NCBI GenBank assembly: GCA_024637015.1
Contig: JAGXGE010000026.1
Location: forward strand, 62,001 to 126,000
Source of the DNA: Aequorivita sp.
GTDB taxonomy: Bacteria > Bacteroidota > Bacteroidia > Flavobacteriales > Flavobacteriaceae
Direction of reading: 5' to 3'
DNA length: 64,000 bases
In this document: positions 5,901 to 11,887 of the stretch, in pieces
Position numbering within the stretch: position 1 is the first letter of the stretch
Layout: each line of letters starts with the position of its first letter
Translations under genes and position numbers: made by a program
The notes under the pieces: model-generated
What the model was told of the DNA's origin: nothing
The model's input: the letters and a program-made list of their open reading frames with translations, nothing else
Database searches by the model: none

Positions 5901-6998
5901 ATGTCCCGAACTGCTCTTTTATTATTTTTTTTCACCGTTTCTATTGTTTTTTCACAGGAAAAAAACAAAAAGGATTTCTTTGTAGACGCAAATTATTTCT
6001 ACGGGACTATTCTTAGGCATAACAAGGATATTTCACATTTGGTGAAAAACCATCCCGACGGTTTTATTATTGGTTTCAACCGAAAAACCTACGGGACTGA
6101 GAGTTGGCACCAAGAATATAATTACCCAGACTGGGGCTTTTCATTTGTGCATCAAAATGCACATTATGATGTTTTGGGTGAGAATTATGGTTTATATGGA
6201 CATTTCAATTTTTATTTTTTAAAGCGAAATATTTTCTTCCGAATAGGTCAGGGCATTGCATACAATACCAATCCGTTTGATTTTGAAACCAATTTTAAAA
6301 ACAACGCTTACGGCAGCGATTTTTTGAGTTCTACATATTTGATGCTGAACTACAACAAGCAACATCTTTTTAAAAACTTTGGGGTACAGGCAGGAATTGC
6401 TTTGGTGCACTATTCGAACGGAAATTTTAAAGCGCCGAATTCTAGCACCAATGCTTTTACTGTTAATGTAGGTTTGCAATATTCCGTTGCCGATGAAAAT
6501 ACTTCAAAATATATTTCAGATTCAATTCCAAATAAAGTTTCTGAACCTATAAAATATAATTTTGTACTTCGAGGTGGACTGAATGAAAGTGATTATTTGA
6601 ATCTTGGTCAACAGCCATTCTTTGTAATTTCAGGATTTGCCGACAAACGGGTAACCTATAAAAGTACACTTCAGTTGGGAGCAGATTTTTTTTATTTACC
6701 ATTTTTAAAAAGGGAAATAGAGTACATTTCTGTTGCCTTTCCAAACAGAGGTGTTAAAGGAAATGAAGATTATAAACGTGTTGGTGTTTTTGCTGGCCAT
6801 GAACTTCATATTAACAAATTGGCGATAGTTTCACAAGTAGGCTATTATATCTATTATCCATATGATTTTGAGGGTAGAACCTATTTTAGAGCTGGATTGA
6901 AATATTATGCAACAGATAAACTATTCGGAGCAATCACTTTAAAATCGCACGGCGCCAAAGTAGAAGGTGTAGAATTCGGGTTGGGAATTAGAATATAA
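5901..6998 (+). CDS. Outer-membrane PagL-like / acyloxyacyl hydrolase family protein, copy 1
   Basis: This 365-aa protein (ATG at 5901; in-frame upstream TTG/GTG codons at 5883 and 5895 would only extend the signal peptide) has a signal peptide ending near VFSQE and many alternating strands, as expected for an outer-membrane barrel. The block HYSNGNFKAPNSSTN resembles the His-x-Ser-Asn active site of lipid A 3-O-deacylase PagL, and such proteins are commonly named acyloxyacyl hydrolase. The position where PagL has its catalytic Glu appears to be Asn, so activity is uncertain. It is followed three bases later by a GIN-domain lipoprotein, and the whole pair is repeated downstream at 7782-9669. 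Confidence 0.75.
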   Translation: MSRTALLLFFFTVSIVFSQEKNKKDFFVDANYFYGTILRHNKDISHLVKNHPDGFIIGFNRKTYGTESWHQEYNYPDWGFSFVHQNAHYDVLGENYGLYGHFNFYFLKRNIFFRIGQGIAYNTNPFDFETNFKNNAYGSDFLSSTYLMLNYNKQHLFKNFGVQAGIALVHYSNGNFKAPNSSTNAFTVNVGLQYSVADENTSKYISDSIPNKVSEPIKYNFVLRGGLNESDYLNLGQQPFFVISGFADKRVTYKSTLQLGADFFYLPFLKREIEYISVAFPNRGVKGNEDYKRVGVFAGHELHINKLAIVSQVGYYIYYPYDFEGRTYFRAGLKYYATDKLFGAITLKSHGAKVEGVEFGLGIRI

Positions 6999-7001
6999 AT
7001 T

Positions 7002-7754
7002 ATGAAGAAACTCCTTTTTTTAGGGCTAATTTTTTTGATGCTTTCTTGCAATTCTGCAAACAGTTGGGATTGTTTGCAGGCGACAGGGAATTCCGTCACA
7101 AAAGAATATATTATTTCAGATTTTTCAAAAATTAGAATCGAAGACGATATTACGCTATACTTAAAACAAGGTGAAACCCAACAGGTGAAACTTGAAACTG
7201 GCGAAAACCTTTTGGGTGATATTTCCGTAACTATTGAAGAAAATACACTCGTAGTGAAAGATCACAATAGTTGTAATTTGGTTCGCGATTACGGAATTAC
7301 AAAAGTTTTTGTAACAGCGCCGAACATCACAGAAATTAGGAATAGTTCGGCTTACGATGTTATTGGAGATGGAATTTTGAATTTTCCAGCACTTACTTTG
7401 GTGAGTAATAGTACAGCTGGACCTGAAACAATCAGAAAGAGTGGCGATTTTTATTTGAATATTAAATGTGACGAATTTCGAGTATCCGCTAATGGACAAA
7501 GTGTTTTTTACATTTCGGGAACTACTCAAAAAGCCACTTTAAGTTTTGCCGATGAAATGCCCCGATTTGAAGGTAAAGATTTTTTAATAAATGAACTTAC
7601 TGTTTTTCAAAGAAGTGCAAATAAAATGATAGTAAATCCGCAACAAAGTATCGTCGGGAAAATCGTGGCAACTGGTGATATAATTAGCTTCAATAGGCCG
7701 TCATTGGTAGATGTAAAAGAATTATTTACAGGCAGGCTATTATTTGAAGATTAG
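7002..7754 (+). CDS. GIN-domain (DUF2807) lipoprotein, copy 1
   Basis: A 250-aa lipoprotein with lipobox LMLSC (Cys16). The body is the head-GIN (DUF2807) fold: a parallel beta solenoid seen as short repeated strands, with FSKIRIEDDITLYLKQGE and VFVTAPNITEIRNSSAYDV. The signature SWDCLQATGN just after the lipid anchor is shared with copy 2 at 8920. Such proteins are annotated as putative adhesin heads, with function unproven. The three-base spacing to the upstream barrel gene and the duplication of the pair suggest that the two act together at the outer membrane (inference). Confidence 0.8.
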   Translation: MKKLLFLGLIFLMLSCNSANSWDCLQATGNSVTKEYIISDFSKIRIEDDITLYLKQGETQQVKLETGENLLGDISVTIEENTLVVKDHNSCNLVRDYGITKVFVTAPNITEIRNSSAYDVIGDGILNFPALTLVSNSTAGPETIRKSGDFYLNIKCDEFRVSANGQSVFYISGTTQKATLSFADEMPRFEGKDFLINELTVFQRSANKMIVNPQQSIVGKIVATGDIISFNRPSLVDVKELFTGRLLFED

Positions 7755-7781
7755 TTTATCTTTACTGGCGTTGAAAAAAAT

Positions 7782-8891
7782 ATGAAGCAGCTTCTTTCCG
7801 TATTCACAATCCTAATTTTAAGTTTTCCGCTTTTTTCGCAGGAAAAAGAATTAAAACCTGTTTCGCTTGAGGCAGATTTTTTTTATGGAAGTGTTTTGGA
7901 GCACAACCCAGATATTGAGCATCTAATTTCGGGGCATCCCACTGGGTTTATTTTTTCTTTTAACAGAAAAACATACGGTTTTAATGAATGGGAGCGCCGT
8001 TATAATTATCCAGATTGGGGGGTTACACTCGCCTATCAGGACTTGGATAACGATTATTTGGGAAATGTGGTAGGTGTTTACGGACACCTTAATTGGTATT
8101 TTTTAAACAGAAATTTTATGGTTCGGGTTGGGCAGGGAATTGCCTATTCCGCAAAACCTTTTGACACACAATCTAACTATAATAATAATGCCTACGGCAC
8201 GCAGCTATTAAGTTCAACTTTTTTAAAAGGAAATTACGTGCGTGAAAACATTTGGAAGGGTCTTGGTCTTCACGCTGGGTTAACAATCATTCATTACAGT
8301 AATGCTAATTTCAAGGCTCCCAATAATAGCACAAACTCATTCTTGCTAAATGCAGGGGTAAGCTATCAATTGGATTATAAAGAATTTCCAGAATACATTC
8401 ATAAAGAAGATTCGCTCAGTAAAACACACGCCGAAAGATTTAAATACAATTTTGCTTTTAGAACTGGTTTGAATGAAAGTGATGTGGTGGGTCTTGGGCA
8501 AGAGCCGTTTTATGAATTGTCTTTTTTTGTAGATAAACGCTTGAATTATAAAAGTACACTTACTGCAGGAGTAGATGTTTTCTTTTCAACTTTTTTGAAG
8601 GAGTTGATAACCTATCGCTCAATAGCTTATCCTGAAGACGGACTTTCCGGCGATGAAGATTACAAACGTGTTGGCGTTTTTGTAGGCCATGAATGGCGTT
8701 TTAATCGGTTGGCGTTTGTTTCACAGTTGGGCTATTATGTTTATTGGCCATACGCTTTTGAAAATCGCGTTTACAATCGTTTGGGCTTAAAACGTTATTT
8801 CTTTGATGATAATTTATTCGCCTCCGTAACAGTGCATGCGCACTGGGCTAAAGCGGAAGCCGTGGAATTTGGAGTCGGTTATAGATTATAA
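7782..8891 (+). CDS. Outer-membrane PagL-like / acyloxyacyl hydrolase family protein, copy 2
   Basis: A 369-aa paralogue of the gene at 5901, clearly alignable throughout. Shared blocks include FNRKTYG, YNYPDWG, RVGQGIAYS, HYSNANFKAPNNSTN, GLNESD and DYKRVGVFVGHE. The signal peptide ends near PLFSQE. The His-x-Ser-Asn block is kept, and the putative acid position is again Asn. The ATG at 7782 directly precedes the signal peptide. It lies 27 bases after the first lipoprotein gene and is followed by the second one, so the cassette is a tandem duplication that has since diverged. Confidence 0.77.
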   Translation: MKQLLSVFTILILSFPLFSQEKELKPVSLEADFFYGSVLEHNPDIEHLISGHPTGFIFSFNRKTYGFNEWERRYNYPDWGVTLAYQDLDNDYLGNVVGVYGHLNWYFLNRNFMVRVGQGIAYSAKPFDTQSNYNNNAYGTQLLSSTFLKGNYVRENIWKGLGLHAGLTIIHYSNANFKAPNNSTNSFLLNAGVSYQLDYKEFPEYIHKEDSLSKTHAERFKYNFAFRTGLNESDVVGLGQEPFYELSFFVDKRLNYKSTLTAGVDVFFSTFLKELITYRSIAYPEDGLSGDEDYKRVGVFVGHEWRFNRLAFVSQLGYYVYWPYAFENRVYNRLGLKRYFFDDNLFASVTVHAHWAKAEAVEFGVGYRL

Positions 8892-8919
8892 CAACTCTAT
8901 TTTTTTAGAAATAATAAAT

Positions 8920-9669
8920 ATGAAAAATATAATTTACGTTTTACTGATTCTTCTTTTTGCCGGATGCGATTCGGAAAATGGTTGGGACTGTATACAAAAG
9001 GCTGGTGATATTGTGGAAACGGAATTCACTGTGCAGCCATTTACAAAAATACTTGTTTGGGAACGAATCCAACTTTTTGTTAAGCAAGGTGACGAACAAA
9101 AAGTGGTTGTTGAAACTGGCGAAAATTTAATGAACGATGTTGAAGTTTCGGTTACAGATGGAAAGCTTGAAATCCACAATAACAATTCTTGTAATTTAGT
9201 ACGTGATTATGGGTTGACAAAAGTGTACGTTACTGTTCCAAATATTACTGAAATTCGCAGTAGTAGTGGGCTTTCAGTGGAAAGTATTGGAGTACTTCGG
9301 TATCCATCTTTGACTCTTTTGTCTGAAGACCAACAAAACGAGGACGAATACCATACTGACGGCGATTTTAAAATGAATCTGGACGTTGGACACTTGAATG
9401 TTGTAGCCAATGGTCTTTCTAAATTTTATTTGAGCGGAAGCGCCACAAGTGCCAGTTTTGGTCTGTATGCAAGCGATTGCAGAATTTTTTCTGAAAATTT
9501 AATCGTTCAAAATCTATCTTTTTTTCACAGAAGTACGGGAGAAATGGTAGTGAATCCACAACAAGCCATTAGAGGTAAAATAGTGAGTTTGGGCAACGTG
9601 ATTTCAAAAACAAGACCACCAATTGTTGAGGTAGAGGAATTGTACCGCGGGAAACTTATTTTTGAATAG
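8920..9669 (+). CDS. GIN-domain (DUF2807) lipoprotein, copy 2
   Basis: This 249-aa paralogue of the gene at 7002 starts at the ATG at 8920, which directly precedes a lipoprotein signal (LLFAGC, Cys16); an earlier in-frame ATG would fuse unrelated residues from the end of the upstream gene. It shares GWDCIQKAGD after the anchor, SCNLVRDYGLTKVYVTVPNITEIRSSSG in the solenoid (read as two adjacent blocks), and the C-terminal pattern MVVNPQQAIRGKIV. Its 3' end overlaps the convergent gldA by 14 bases. The substrate or binding partner is unknown. Confidence 0.8.
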   Translation: MKNIIYVLLILLFAGCDSENGWDCIQKAGDIVETEFTVQPFTKILVWERIQLFVKQGDEQKVVVETGENLMNDVEVSVTDGKLEIHNNNSCNLVRDYGLTKVYVTVPNITEIRSSSGLSVESIGVLRYPSLTLLSEDQQNEDEYHTDGDFKMNLDVGHLNVVANGLSKFYLSGSATSASFGLYASDCRIFSENLIVQNLSFFHRSTGEMVVNPQQAIRGKIVSLGNVISKTRPPIVEVEELYRGKLIFE

Positions 9670-10555
9670 TAAGCTCGCTGAAAAGCTTTTCCAAAGTAGT
9701 GTTTTTTTGGTGTAGTTGAAGTATTTTCAAACCATTGTCATGCGCAAAATCGAACACTTTTCCACGCATATCCTGTTCGGTTTCAAAATAAAGCTGATAA
9801 ACAAAACCAATTGAGTTTTCTATCTTTTCAATTTTTGGAAGCTGTTGAAGCGCCACTTCCTCAACACGGTAATCAAATTCAACTTCAATAATTTGTTGCT
9901 TTTTGTTTTTTAAGTCTGAAAGTTTTTTATCAAGAACAATTTCACCTTTATTAATAATAATAACGCGGTCGCAAATGGCTTCAACTTCCTGCATAATGTG
10001 TGTGGAAAGCAAAACTGTTTTTTCCTTTCCAACATTTTTTATGAGTTGACGAATTTCAATCAATTGATTTGGATCCAAACCTGTTGTTGGCTCATCGAGA
10101 ATTAAAACTTCAGGGTTGTGCAACAAAGCATTTGCAAGCCCAACACGCTGGCGGTATCCTTTTGAAAGTTGGCCGATTTTTTTATTCGCTTCTGGCGTCA
10201 ATCCTGTTTTTTCTATGATGCTTTCTACTTCAGATTTTGAAATATTGTAGATTCCCGCATTAAAAAGAAGATATTCGCGAACATACATATCCAAGTAAAG
10301 TGGGTTGTGTTCGGGTAGATAGCCCACACTTTTTTTAACGGCAATATCATCTTTGTTTACTTCAAAACCGTTCACGATTGCCACACCCTTCGAGGCCGGC
10401 AGATAAGTTGTCAAAATTTTCATCATTGTGGATTTTCCCGCGCCATTTGGACCCAGAAAACCAACAATTTCACCTTTTTCAATGGAAAATGAAACGTTAT
10501 TCAGCGCTTTTTGTTCGCCGTAGGTTTTGGTGATATTTTCTACTTTTATCGACAT
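9656..10555 (-). CDS. gldA: Gliding motility ABC transporter ATP-binding protein GldA
   Basis: A 299-aa ABC ATPase with Walker A GPNGAGKST (residues 35-43), signature LSKGYRQRVGLA, Walker B VLILDEPTTGLD and switch His in STHIMQEV. The C-terminal about 90 residues after KGEIVLDKKLSDL match the GldA-type extension. In Flavobacterium johnsoniae, GldA works with the membrane proteins GldF and GldG, which are not in this window. The gene stands alone, convergent with the lipoprotein at 8920 and divergent from the aromatic leader. A TAGCTTTG -7 element precedes it (10569-10576, minus). Confidence 0.9.
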   Translation of the reverse strand: MSIKVENITKTYGEQKALNNVSFSIEKGEIVGFLGPNGAGKSTMMKILTTYLPASKGVAIVNGFEVNKDDIAVKKSVGYLPEHNPLYLDMYVREYLLFNAGIYNISKSEVESIIEKTGLTPEANKKIGQLSKGYRQRVGLANALLHNPEVLILDEPTTGLDPNQLIEIRQLIKNVGKEKTVLLSTHIMQEVEAICDRVIIINKGEIVLDKKLSDLKNKKQQIIEVEFDYRVEEVALQQLPKIEKIENSIGFVYQLYFETEQDMRGKVFDFAHDNGLKILQLHQKNTTLEKLFSELTIQK

Positions 10556-10576: not shown

Positions 10577-10667
10577 CATAAATTTCTTCCGAAGTGATTC
10601 CACTCTTCAATTTTAAATTTTTCATAAAACGTTTTAAAAATCACATTTATTGGCTAATTTAGCCGCT

Positions 10668-10733
10668 ATGAATGCAAAAAGTAATTACAATTTTTCCAAA
10701 GCTTGGTGGCATATGTTCAATACCATTCGCTAA
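10668..10733 (+). CDS. Aromatic leader peptide of the DAHP synthase operon
   Basis: A 21-codon reading frame starting ATG at 10668 and ending TAA at 10731-10733. It contains Tyr-Asn-Phe, then Ala-Trp-Trp-His-Met-Phe; the tandem Trp codons are at 10704-10709. Immediately downstream are overlapping hairpin options and an intrinsic terminator, then the DAHP synthase gene. This is the architecture of ribosome-mediated attenuation: stalling at scarce Trp (or Tyr/Phe) codons would favour the antiterminator. Trp-codon leaders before aromatic genes are known in bacteria; whether this one is already catalogued cannot be told here. Confidence 0.8.
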   Translation: MNAKSNYNFSKAWWHMFNTIR

Positions 10734-10734
10734 A

Positions 10735-10790
10735 GGGATTATTGTATTTTTAAATATACTTTGAAAAGTCCCATTTTTGGGACTTTTTTT
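10735..10790 (+). promoter_or_regulatory. Attenuator: antiterminator and intrinsic terminator upstream of DAHP synthase
   Basis: The terminator stem is AAAAGTCCC (10764-10772) with GGGACTTTT (10779-10787) and a T run to 10790. A competing antiterminator pairs GGGATT (10735-10740), directly after the leader stop codon, with AGTCCC (10767-10772), the 5' arm of the terminator. A ribosome resting at the leader stop would hide 10735-10740 and allow termination; one stalled on the Trp pair 25 bases earlier would leave it free for antitermination. Confidence 0.78.
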
Positions 10791-10804
10791 ATGAAATTGA
10801 ATTT

Positions 10805-11887
10805 ATGGAAAACAAAAAAGAATTACGCAATTGGTTAGATGCTTTTGGTTTAAACCATCCACTTGTTATCGCTGGGCCATGCAGTGCAGAAACCGAAGAA
10901 CAAGTACTGAAAATTGCACATCAGCTGAAAGATACGGATACTTCGGTTTTACGTGCCGGAATTTGGAAACCACGAACCCGTCCCGGAAATTTTGAAGGCG
11001 TTGGTGCTTTGGGTTTAAAGTGGCTTCAGAAGGCAAAGGAAGAGACAGGGTTGCTCACAACAACTGAAGTTGCAAACGCCAATCACGTAGATTTAGCGCT
11101 AAAACACGATGTAGATATTTTATGGATTGGTGCCCGCACAACCGTTTCGCCATTTATTGTTCAAGAGATTGCAGATGCCGTAAAAGGAACAGATAAAATT
11201 GTTCTGGTGAAAAATCCAGTAAATCCAGATTTGGCTTTGTGGCTTGGAGCTGTGGAGCGTTTTTATGAAGCTGGAATTATTAAACTTGGCGTTATTCACC
11301 GCGGATTTTCTACCTATGAAAAAACACGTTACCGCAATAACCCAGAATGGCAAATTCCGATTGATCTTCAAAACACATTTCCTGATCTGCCCCTTATATT
11401 GGATCCTTCGCACATTGCGGGTAGGCGCGATATAATTTTTGAACTTTGCCAAACAGCGCTCGATTTAAACTATGACGGTTTAATGGTAGAGACCCATTTT
11501 GATCCTGACAATGCATGGAGTGATGCCGAACAGCAAATTACGCCAGCTACGTTAGAGAAAATGACGGTTGATCTTAAAATTCGAAAAGTGGAAGGCGATG
11601 AGGTTGAATTCAACAATCAATTAAATACAATGCGTACACAGATTGATTTAATTGACGATCAAATAATGGACATGTTAGGCAAGCGAATGAAAATTGTGGA
11701 TAGTATAGGCGCTTTAAAAAAGAAGAACAACGTTGCAATCCTTCAAGTAAAACGTTGGAATGAAGTGTTGGGACGTATGATTTTAGAAGGCGAAGAGAAT
11801 AAACTTAGCGAAGAGTTTGTGCTAAAAATTTATAAAGCAATTCACCAAGAATCTATTAACCATCAAAAAAAGGTTATTAATGAATAA
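10805..11887 (+). CDS. Bifunctional 3-deoxy-7-phosphoheptulonate synthase / chorismate mutase (type II)
   Basis: This 360-aa protein joins two activities of aromatic synthesis. Residues 1 to about 260 are the DAHP synthase barrel (GPCSAET, AGIWKPRTRPGNFEG, KNPVNPDL, ILDPSHIAGRR). Residues about 270-355 are an all-helical AroQ-type chorismate mutase (MRTQIDLIDDQIMDMLGKRM). This domain order is usual in Bacteroidota. It condenses PEP with erythrose 4-phosphate and converts chorismate to prephenate. A Tyr/Phe/Trp leader and attenuator precede it. The next gene, rsgA, follows after a short gap and may be co-transcribed. Confidence 0.93.
   Translation: MENKKELRNWLDAFGLNHPLVIAGPCSAETEEQVLKIAHQLKDTDTSVLRAGIWKPRTRPGNFEGVGALGLKWLQKAKEETGLLTTTEVANANHVDLALKHDVDILWIGARTTVSPFIVQEIADAVKGTDKIVLVKNPVNPDLALWLGAVERFYEAGIIKLGVIHRGFSTYEKTRYRNNPEWQIPIDLQNTFPDLPLILDPSHIAGRRDIIFELCQTALDLNYDGLMVETHFDPDNAWSDAEQQITPATLEKMTVDLKIRKVEGDEVEFNNQLNTMRTQIDLIDDQIMDMLGKRMKIVDSIGALKKKNNVAILQVKRWNEVLGRMILEGEENKLSEEFVLKIYKAIHQESINHQKKVINE

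Follow-up and report, generated by a model that had tools for sequence, protein, structure and literature searches.

A putative Trp-responsive attenuator before aroG in Flavobacteriaceae, probably recoded from a pheA leader with Phe, Tyr and Trp codons

Classical ribosome-mediated attenuators, such as the trpL, pheA and pheST leaders of E. coli, combine a short leader ORF carrying tandem regulatory codons with mutually exclusive antiterminator and terminator hairpins and a biosynthetic gene downstream. The aroG leader described here is built in the same way, but it differs from them in its position at a DAHP synthase gene, in its probably leaderless mRNA and in its likely descent from a sensor of three aromatic amino acids. 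The closest systems described in Bacteroidota are the Bacteroid-trp leader (RF01692), a Trp leader of this phylum (Weinberg et al. 2010, PMC2864571; Trp leaders in Bacteroidota are also named in PMC6414381), and a structured 5′ element upstream of pheA in F. psychrophilum, which occurs in other Flavobacteriaceae genera and has no Rfam match (PMC9723704). Its authors see strong indications that amino acid operons are preceded by leader-peptide attenuators. Likened by its description, the F. psychrophilum pheA element is probably the same ancestral element as the one treated below, to which the present account adds, relative to the available portion of that paper, the codon content, the aroG-only form and the change on loss of a pathway branch. 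No paper on such an aroG leader, or on recoding after loss of a pathway branch, was found among the open-licence matches listed.

The locus lies in a window of 64,000 nucleotides (the whole stretch of DNA analysed) from a genome of Flavobacteriaceae near Aequorivita, the aroG of which is 97-98% identical to the closest Aequorivita records. The preferred reading, to which a probability of roughly 0.8 is given, is that a pan-aromatic pheA leader was recoded to Trp on loss of the Phe/Tyr branch and now acts as a ribosome-mediated attenuator, switching aroG on at low charged tRNA-Trp. The parts of the locus are:

9656-10555, minus strand: gldA, divergent, the syntenic anchor beside the leader, seen in pheA-bearing and pheA-less relatives
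10655-10662, plus strand: −7 promoter-like box TAATTTAG, TAnnTTTG-like, 5 nt upstream of the leader ATG
10668-10733, plus strand: leader peptide ORF MNAKSNYNFSKAWWHMFNTIR (ATG at 10668, 21 codons, TAA at 10731-10733), from sequence reading
10704-10709, plus strand: tandem Trp codons 13-14, the putative stall site, kept in 10/10 window-type leaders
10735-10740, plus strand: antiterminator 5′ arm GGGATT (arm A), 1 base past the stop codon, from covariation and fold
10744-10759, plus strand: inner GUAU/AUAC helix within the antiterminator, predicted by fold alone
10763-10790, plus strand: intrinsic terminator hairpin and U tract, from fold and a looser scan (−14.6 kcal/mol)
10767-10772, plus strand: AGTCCC (arm B), common to antiterminator and terminator, from reading and covariation
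10805-11887, plus strand: aroG, fused DAHP synthase/chorismate mutase, the putatively regulated gene (best NCBIfam match NF009239)

Direct reading agreed to the base with the coordinates, leader codons, GGGATT, AGTCCC and terminator of the original prediction. The regulatory candidates in the leader are Tyr7, Phe9, Trp13-Trp14 and Phe17, and the terminator consists of GAAAAGTCCCA-TTTT-TGGGACTTTTT, with its stem at 10763-10788 and the T run extending to 10790. The match of aroG to NF009239 scores 197 bits, under the curated cut-off of 279. In the loci laid out, gldA was found beside the leader in 8/9 and was not seen in the remaining one (L030). On the other side of gldA in the window (5907-9666) lie two tandem copies of a unit encoding a PagL-type lipid A deacylase and a DUF2807 (head GIN) protein. 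A 15-codon out-of-frame ORF, MKLNLWKTKKNYAIG (10791-10838), begins just past the U tract and overlaps the 5′ end of aroG; L083-L088 have ORFs like it, and this one is possibly due to chance.

The box upstream of the leader matches five of the six fixed positions of TAnnTTTG, the −7 consensus (PMC9723704). At least five positions are matched in 92/94 leaders, although the mean of 5.0 is to be set against a shuffled mean of 4.4, which makes the match weak when taken by itself; the sequence TACTTTAG was found in 42/94 leaders. Because the −7-like box lies only 5 nt before the ATG, the leader mRNA is probably leaderless, with the transcript probably starting at or adjacent to the leader ATG.

Folding of the 165-nt region gave −41.9 kcal/mol, compared with −27.3 (sd 3.3) for 200 shuffles (z −4.4). 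In the window fold the predicted antiterminator (−8.4 kcal/mol) is weaker than the terminator (−14.6 kcal/mol), so timing, not stability, would decide between them. A simple consensus promoter/terminator scan was discarded as evidence, having failed to list this terminator, which was identified by the fold and the looser scan.

A total of 127 non-redundant aroG loci were classified by upstream genes and leader. A leader followed by a terminator was detected by script in 34/36 sufficiently long loci that have pheA and tyrA upstream, and in 31/31 loci with pheA only; the two missed (L040 and L059) match the leader model and their leaders are present on reading, giving 67/67 pheA-first loci. Among loci in which aroG comes first, 27 have a leader containing Trp codons (W-leader) and a terminator, and 12 valid loci are without a W-leader. 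L263 (genome G142), where the contig ends inside aroG, was left out of the latter class, and two of its members (L033 and L106) keep the terminator behind an ORF devoid of Trp codons.

The three arms of the switch (A and B in the antiterminator; B and C in the terminator) shift together between loci, as GGGAU/GUCCC/GGGAC, GAGAC/GUCUC/GAGAC or GGGAC, AGGAU or AGGAC/GUCCU/AGGAC, and GGGUU/AACCC/GGGUU, with the core variants GUCCC, GUCUC, AAUCC, AACCC and GUCCU changing in step. In a set of 67 different A/B/C triples, each of the five core columns has standard B:C pairing in 67/67; for A:B the column counts are 55, 62, 65, 67 and 65. These raw counts are biased to pairing because arm A was taken as the best fit per region and arms B and C came from a hairpin scan. 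The fair control for arm A is comparison with foreign and shuffled partners: in 89/91 leaders it had a better fit to its own arm B than, on average, to foreign arm Bs of a different core (up to 30), and the fit of arm A to its own arm B exceeded the average of 30 shuffled regions in 88/91 (L079, with no core by the pattern used, and L033 and L106, lacking Trp codons, are omitted). Covariation and fold energies together describe an antiterminator and a terminator that exclude each other through one common arm, and the window element is very probably a transcription attenuator. Compensatory changes in the stems, proposed as a check on the original prediction, are thus present, and its placing of attenuation at the DAHP synthase gene appears well supported by the conserved leader, the terminator, the covarying antiterminator and the stall geometry.

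The antiterminator core of the window lies 25 nt past the last Trp codon and 1 nt past the stop codon. With the usual ribosome footprint, a ribosome stalled at Trp would leave arm A free and one at the stop codon would cover it, and the spacing of stall site and stop codon in the window is as expected for an attenuator on this footprint. The distance from last Trp codon to core is 24-25 nt in 31/31 pheA-aroG leaders and 21-26 nt in 24/27 W-leaders, the exceptions being L256 and L257 (32 nt) and L030, for which the assignment of arm A is ambiguous (score 10, distance −3). The spacing varies widely among full-operon leaders, with a median of 27 and a range of −13 to 63 (n=33).

Sequence shows the parts of the locus, their covariation, the codon differences and which genes each genome has or lacks; stalling, termination and a response to Trp we infer as follows. 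Scarcity of charged tRNA-Trp would stall the ribosome at Trp13/Trp14, so that arm A (10735-10740) would be available for pairing with arm B (10767-10772); with arm B so occupied the terminator would not form, and RNA polymerase would read into aroG. With enough Trp, the ribosome would reach the TAA at 10731 and cover arm A, allowing the terminator to form.

That Trp is the amino acid read is suggested by the codons that recur and by the gene content of the genome. In ten 21-codon leaders of the window type, W13, W14 and H15 are present in 10/10, Y7 and F17 in 8/10 each and F9 in 5/10. Tandem Trp codons occur in 22/27 W-leaders before aroG (followed by His in 16/22), with a single Trp codon in the other five (L009, L010, L011, L012 and L108), and in 0/65 script-found pheA-first leaders. 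The frequency in W-leaders exceeds chance, as only 35/5795 short ORFs starting with ATG in the loci of relatives, real leaders among them, have the tandem pair. The conserved Trp codons expected in other flavobacteria are accordingly found in the window type and beyond it, and leaders of other pheA-less lineages, e.g. MKNAFHIWWHYTN, MYNHSLYWWHLFKL, MKTTHRNTSTIWWHIDQR and MIYNNTWWSYSKFYPNR, have only Trp codons in common. The window's own genome gave no match to PF00800 (pheA) or PF02153 (tyrA) and has trpE and trpC, so that Trp is the only recognisable aromatic amino acid product of aroG; the leader ORF thus carries codons for the end product.

The same genome has a Bacteroid-trp leader before trpE (L152, 1296-1414; peptide MNTITTNTWWWKNLRKTS, three Trp codons, 66.9 bits), and since the trp operon has its own Trp leader, a shortage of Trp would be expected to open both leaders. 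Both are of the Trp type, but the aroG leader differs from RF01692 in gene, peptide and arms. RF01692 is absent among the 19 Rfam matches at E ≤ 10 for window positions 10600-10860, while it is matched by the trpE leaders of L152 and L148, so the Bacteroidota trp-leader families, which had been suggested as the place to look, account for the separate trpE leaders and not for the aroG leader. At the gathering score, Rfam detected only a tRNA in the whole window, with no T-box or other cis-element, and the best sub-threshold match for the aroG leader is Phe_leader (25.8 bits, cut-off 55). Rfam was consequently rejected as a family source for this leader.

According to the original prediction, the leader appeared able to sense all three aromatic amino acids, with Tyr7, Phe9 and Phe17 also stalling ribosomes usefully. 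Stalls at any of these codons would, on the footprint given above, also free arm A, and Y7 and F17 each recur in most window-type leaders; against this stand the limitation of codons common to other pheA-less lineages to Trp, the recurrence of F9 in just half of the window-type leaders, the lack of a pheA or tyrA match in the genome, and the runs of Phe/Tyr codons, not single ones, carried by pheA-bearing relatives. Sensing of all three is therefore unlikely for the window leader, where the Tyr and Phe codons could contribute weakly, and the description suits the pheA leaders of its relatives instead. Less probable again is an action mainly on translation or reinitiation at aroG and not on transcription termination: leader genes, including those of Bacteroidetes, have been proposed to raise downstream translation (PMC4833913), but reinitiation needs no terminator, and a U-tract terminator with covarying arms accompanies 27/27 W-leaders and 65/67 pheA-first loci by script. 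The intergenic DNA is AT-rich, and the simple scan turns up 0.6 terminator-like sites in each shuffled version of an 801-base region, which might allow a chance ORF before an ordinary terminator with no regulation, but conservation across many genera with covariation and fixed geometry makes this highly improbable.

The preferred reading, attenuation by Trp in a leader derived from that of pheA, draws on relatives in which pheA is retained. In these, a leader precedes pheA at the same site beside gldA. Its core is TYYNWFYFFF or alike where pheA, an aminotransferase gene and tyrA are present, and FNFWFFYF or alike with pheA only; mean numbers of Phe/Tyr/Trp codons per leader are 4.35/4.06/1 with pheA and tyrA (n=34), 5.81/1.84/1 with pheA only (n=31) and 1.22/0.93/1.81 in W-leaders before aroG (n=27). 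Contrasts within genera have the same form: WW leaders in G099 and G290 (no pheA) against FFSFWYFYF in G404 (pheA), and a one-Trp leader in G127 (no pheA) against YFNFWFFYF in G304 (pheA).

A pheA-leader model was built exclusively from 24 pheA-aroG leaders. When full-operon loci were searched with it, 24/24 were recovered at E < 1e-3, one as a partial match. In the window, the best of 13 matches is at 10654-10796 (full length, 26.0 bits, E 0.0031), ahead of the next (E 0.01) by only about 3-fold, a modest margin. Among 25 W-leader loci searched, 20 were matched at full length at E ≤ 1 (15 at E < 0.05) and L004 in part, with no match in L030, L031, L246 and L248; for the weaker W-leaders, homology is argued from the arms, the promoter box and synteny. 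Intermediate leaders, FNFNNLWQFYF or FNIINLWQFYF, are found in two pheA-less Aequorivita species (L011 and L012) and score 111-114 bits with the same model. In an alignment of leaders, rows L108 and L115 were on the wrong strand and were ignored. In A. sinensis and A. xiaoshiensis (L011/L012, also L092/L093), aroG begins 146-147 nt after the end of the terminator, a gap ~130 nt longer than that of the window. Four of the five trp leaders searched scored 20-24 bits, like the weaker W-leaders, and a distant relation to them is possible, but an origin of the aroG leader as a copy of the trpE leader is disfavoured by synteny, the promoter box and L011/L012. A model match of modest score, gldA synteny and the common promoter box place the window leader with the pheA-operon leaders.

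The direction of change, which we infer from these comparisons, would run from a leader with Phe, Tyr and Trp codons before pheA, in a pheA-aminotransferase-tyrA-aroG or pheA-aroG operon, to the present form. On loss of the Phe/Tyr genes, the run of Phe/Tyr codons would have decayed, while the Trp codon would have kept its distance of ~25 nt to the antiterminator and been joined by a second Trp codon in most lineages.

Presence of the leader was compared with that of pathway genes. In 28 genomes of the genus, pheA is present in 11 and tyrA in one, as a weak match; in the family, pheA was not found in 20/149 genomes and in 30/395 more complete genomes (the two sets overlap). A total of 50 genomes without pheA came to light (17 in the genus, then 18 and 15 more), of which 40 are informative, the ten not counted having no aroG match (G018, G083, G105, G162, G376), a contig edge (G088, with tyrA still upstream, and G142) or aroG behind another pathway gene (G285, G347, G354). 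For G290, G291, G319, G347, G354, G376, G381, G386, G400 and G401, pheA-less status was assigned by elimination, and their number agrees with the ten expected. A break in the TIGR00564 scores, with values of 6e-113 or better on one side and 5e-87 or worse on the other, served to distinguish trpE from paralogues; none of the 149 genomes reaches the curated cut-off of this model, and PF04715 was used for most of the genus; trpC is missing in 11/11 tested genomes without trpE and present in 8/8 others tested.

A W-leader precedes aroG in 23/27 pheA-less genomes with trp genes (12/12 in the genus, 11/15 outside) and in 2/13 without them, three of the latter 13 (G049, G081 and G115; 82-88% complete) being assigned by absence of trpE alone (Fisher p 3.5e-5, not corrected for kinship). 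The sequence before aroG in G386 is short, as the end of an unrelated gene on the same strand lies 24 nt upstream. The 27 W-leader loci include L031 and L248, from trp-less genomes, and L010 and L030, which lie outside the genome-wide check for pheA and trp genes. No leader was found before aroG in four pheA-less genomes with trp genes (G068, G381, G400 and G319). Where Aequorivita genomes lack trp genes, the terminator is retained but the Trp codons are gone (G013, G024), or the terminator is itself decayed (G005), and tandem Trp codons are kept despite the lack of trp genes in G016 and, in another genus, G275. The best reading of this pattern is that the Trp leader tends to decay once Trp synthesis is lost. 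A W-leader forecast in advance for three genomes was present in G059 and absent from G068, with a contig edge in G088, and the forecast of none in seven trp-less genomes held for 6/6 with sequence (contig edge in G142). Genomes found later (G271, G284, G290, G291 and G401) have WW leaders.

Generalisation to one attenuator that follows metabolic capacity throughout Flavobacteriaceae is favoured, with less assurance than the reading of the window itself. Such an element would read Tyr, Trp and Phe with pheA and tyrA present, be Phe-rich without tyrA, read Trp alone once pheA is lost too and decay without Trp synthesis, keeping its stall register and three-arm switch, and would have followed this course several independent times. 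The mechanism is ordinary and the evolutionary series unusual, with three-aromatic, Phe-rich, intermediate, Trp-only and decayed leaders in one family, so that a change in specificity of a ribosome-based sensor becomes testable by codon swaps between real relatives. If true, this would be a natural series for how an RNA sensor switches ligand, the entry enzyme of the pathway would join the trp operon as a target of attenuation in Bacteroidota, and the leader sequence may help to recognise Flavobacteriaceae that are auxotrophic for Phe/Tyr and for Trp.

Recoding to Trp probably happened several times, judging from leaders and tree. A quick tree was made from 126 aroG+rsgA rows, two linked genes; it has several long branches, and L036 (70 nt upstream) was dropped from it. 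Strictly independent contrasts on its starred (well-supported) branches number four, none contrary and too few for significance; the best tree gives nine. A single origin of the Trp-type leader, followed by spread with or without aroG through recombination, would be the alternative, an unlikely one but the most credible of those considered. Leaders of the window, Altibacter lentus and L112 all have 21 codons and GGGATTATTGT in common, and in L031 (G016) a window-like KAWWHM leader precedes an aroG of the pheA-bearing Aequorivita clade (mean identity 93.8% to that clade versus 83.4% to the window clade), with no clear clade preference in its gldA and rsgA. Such a pairing of leader and aroG from different clades looks like recombination, which probably takes place and makes it uncertain how many conversions there were. 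Against a single origin, W-leaders of G059/G271, G275, G099/G290 and the window clade are unlike one another in peptide and arms, L011/L012 clearly represent intermediate stages of the pheA leader, and the W-leader class needs 10 changes on the tree, 7 of them forced by starred branches, although this count alone is compatible with spread.

Repeated recoding on loss of the Phe/Tyr branch, the reading preferred here, leaves aroG with a chorismate mutase domain in genomes without recognisable pheA. Decay of this domain after pheA loss was looked for in the 27 W-leader species at 24 columns conserved in pheA-bearing species, and 25/27 have no deviation. In the window the domain (11591-11884, the 3′ part of aroG) is conserved though the genome has no pheA/tyrA match. 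Its retention could alternatively reflect an unrecognised route to Phe. In the P. gingivalis enzyme, the isolated synthase domain has about a tenth of the kcat (PMC12202928), and a need of DAHP synthase for the chorismate mutase domain is a likely reason for its retention.
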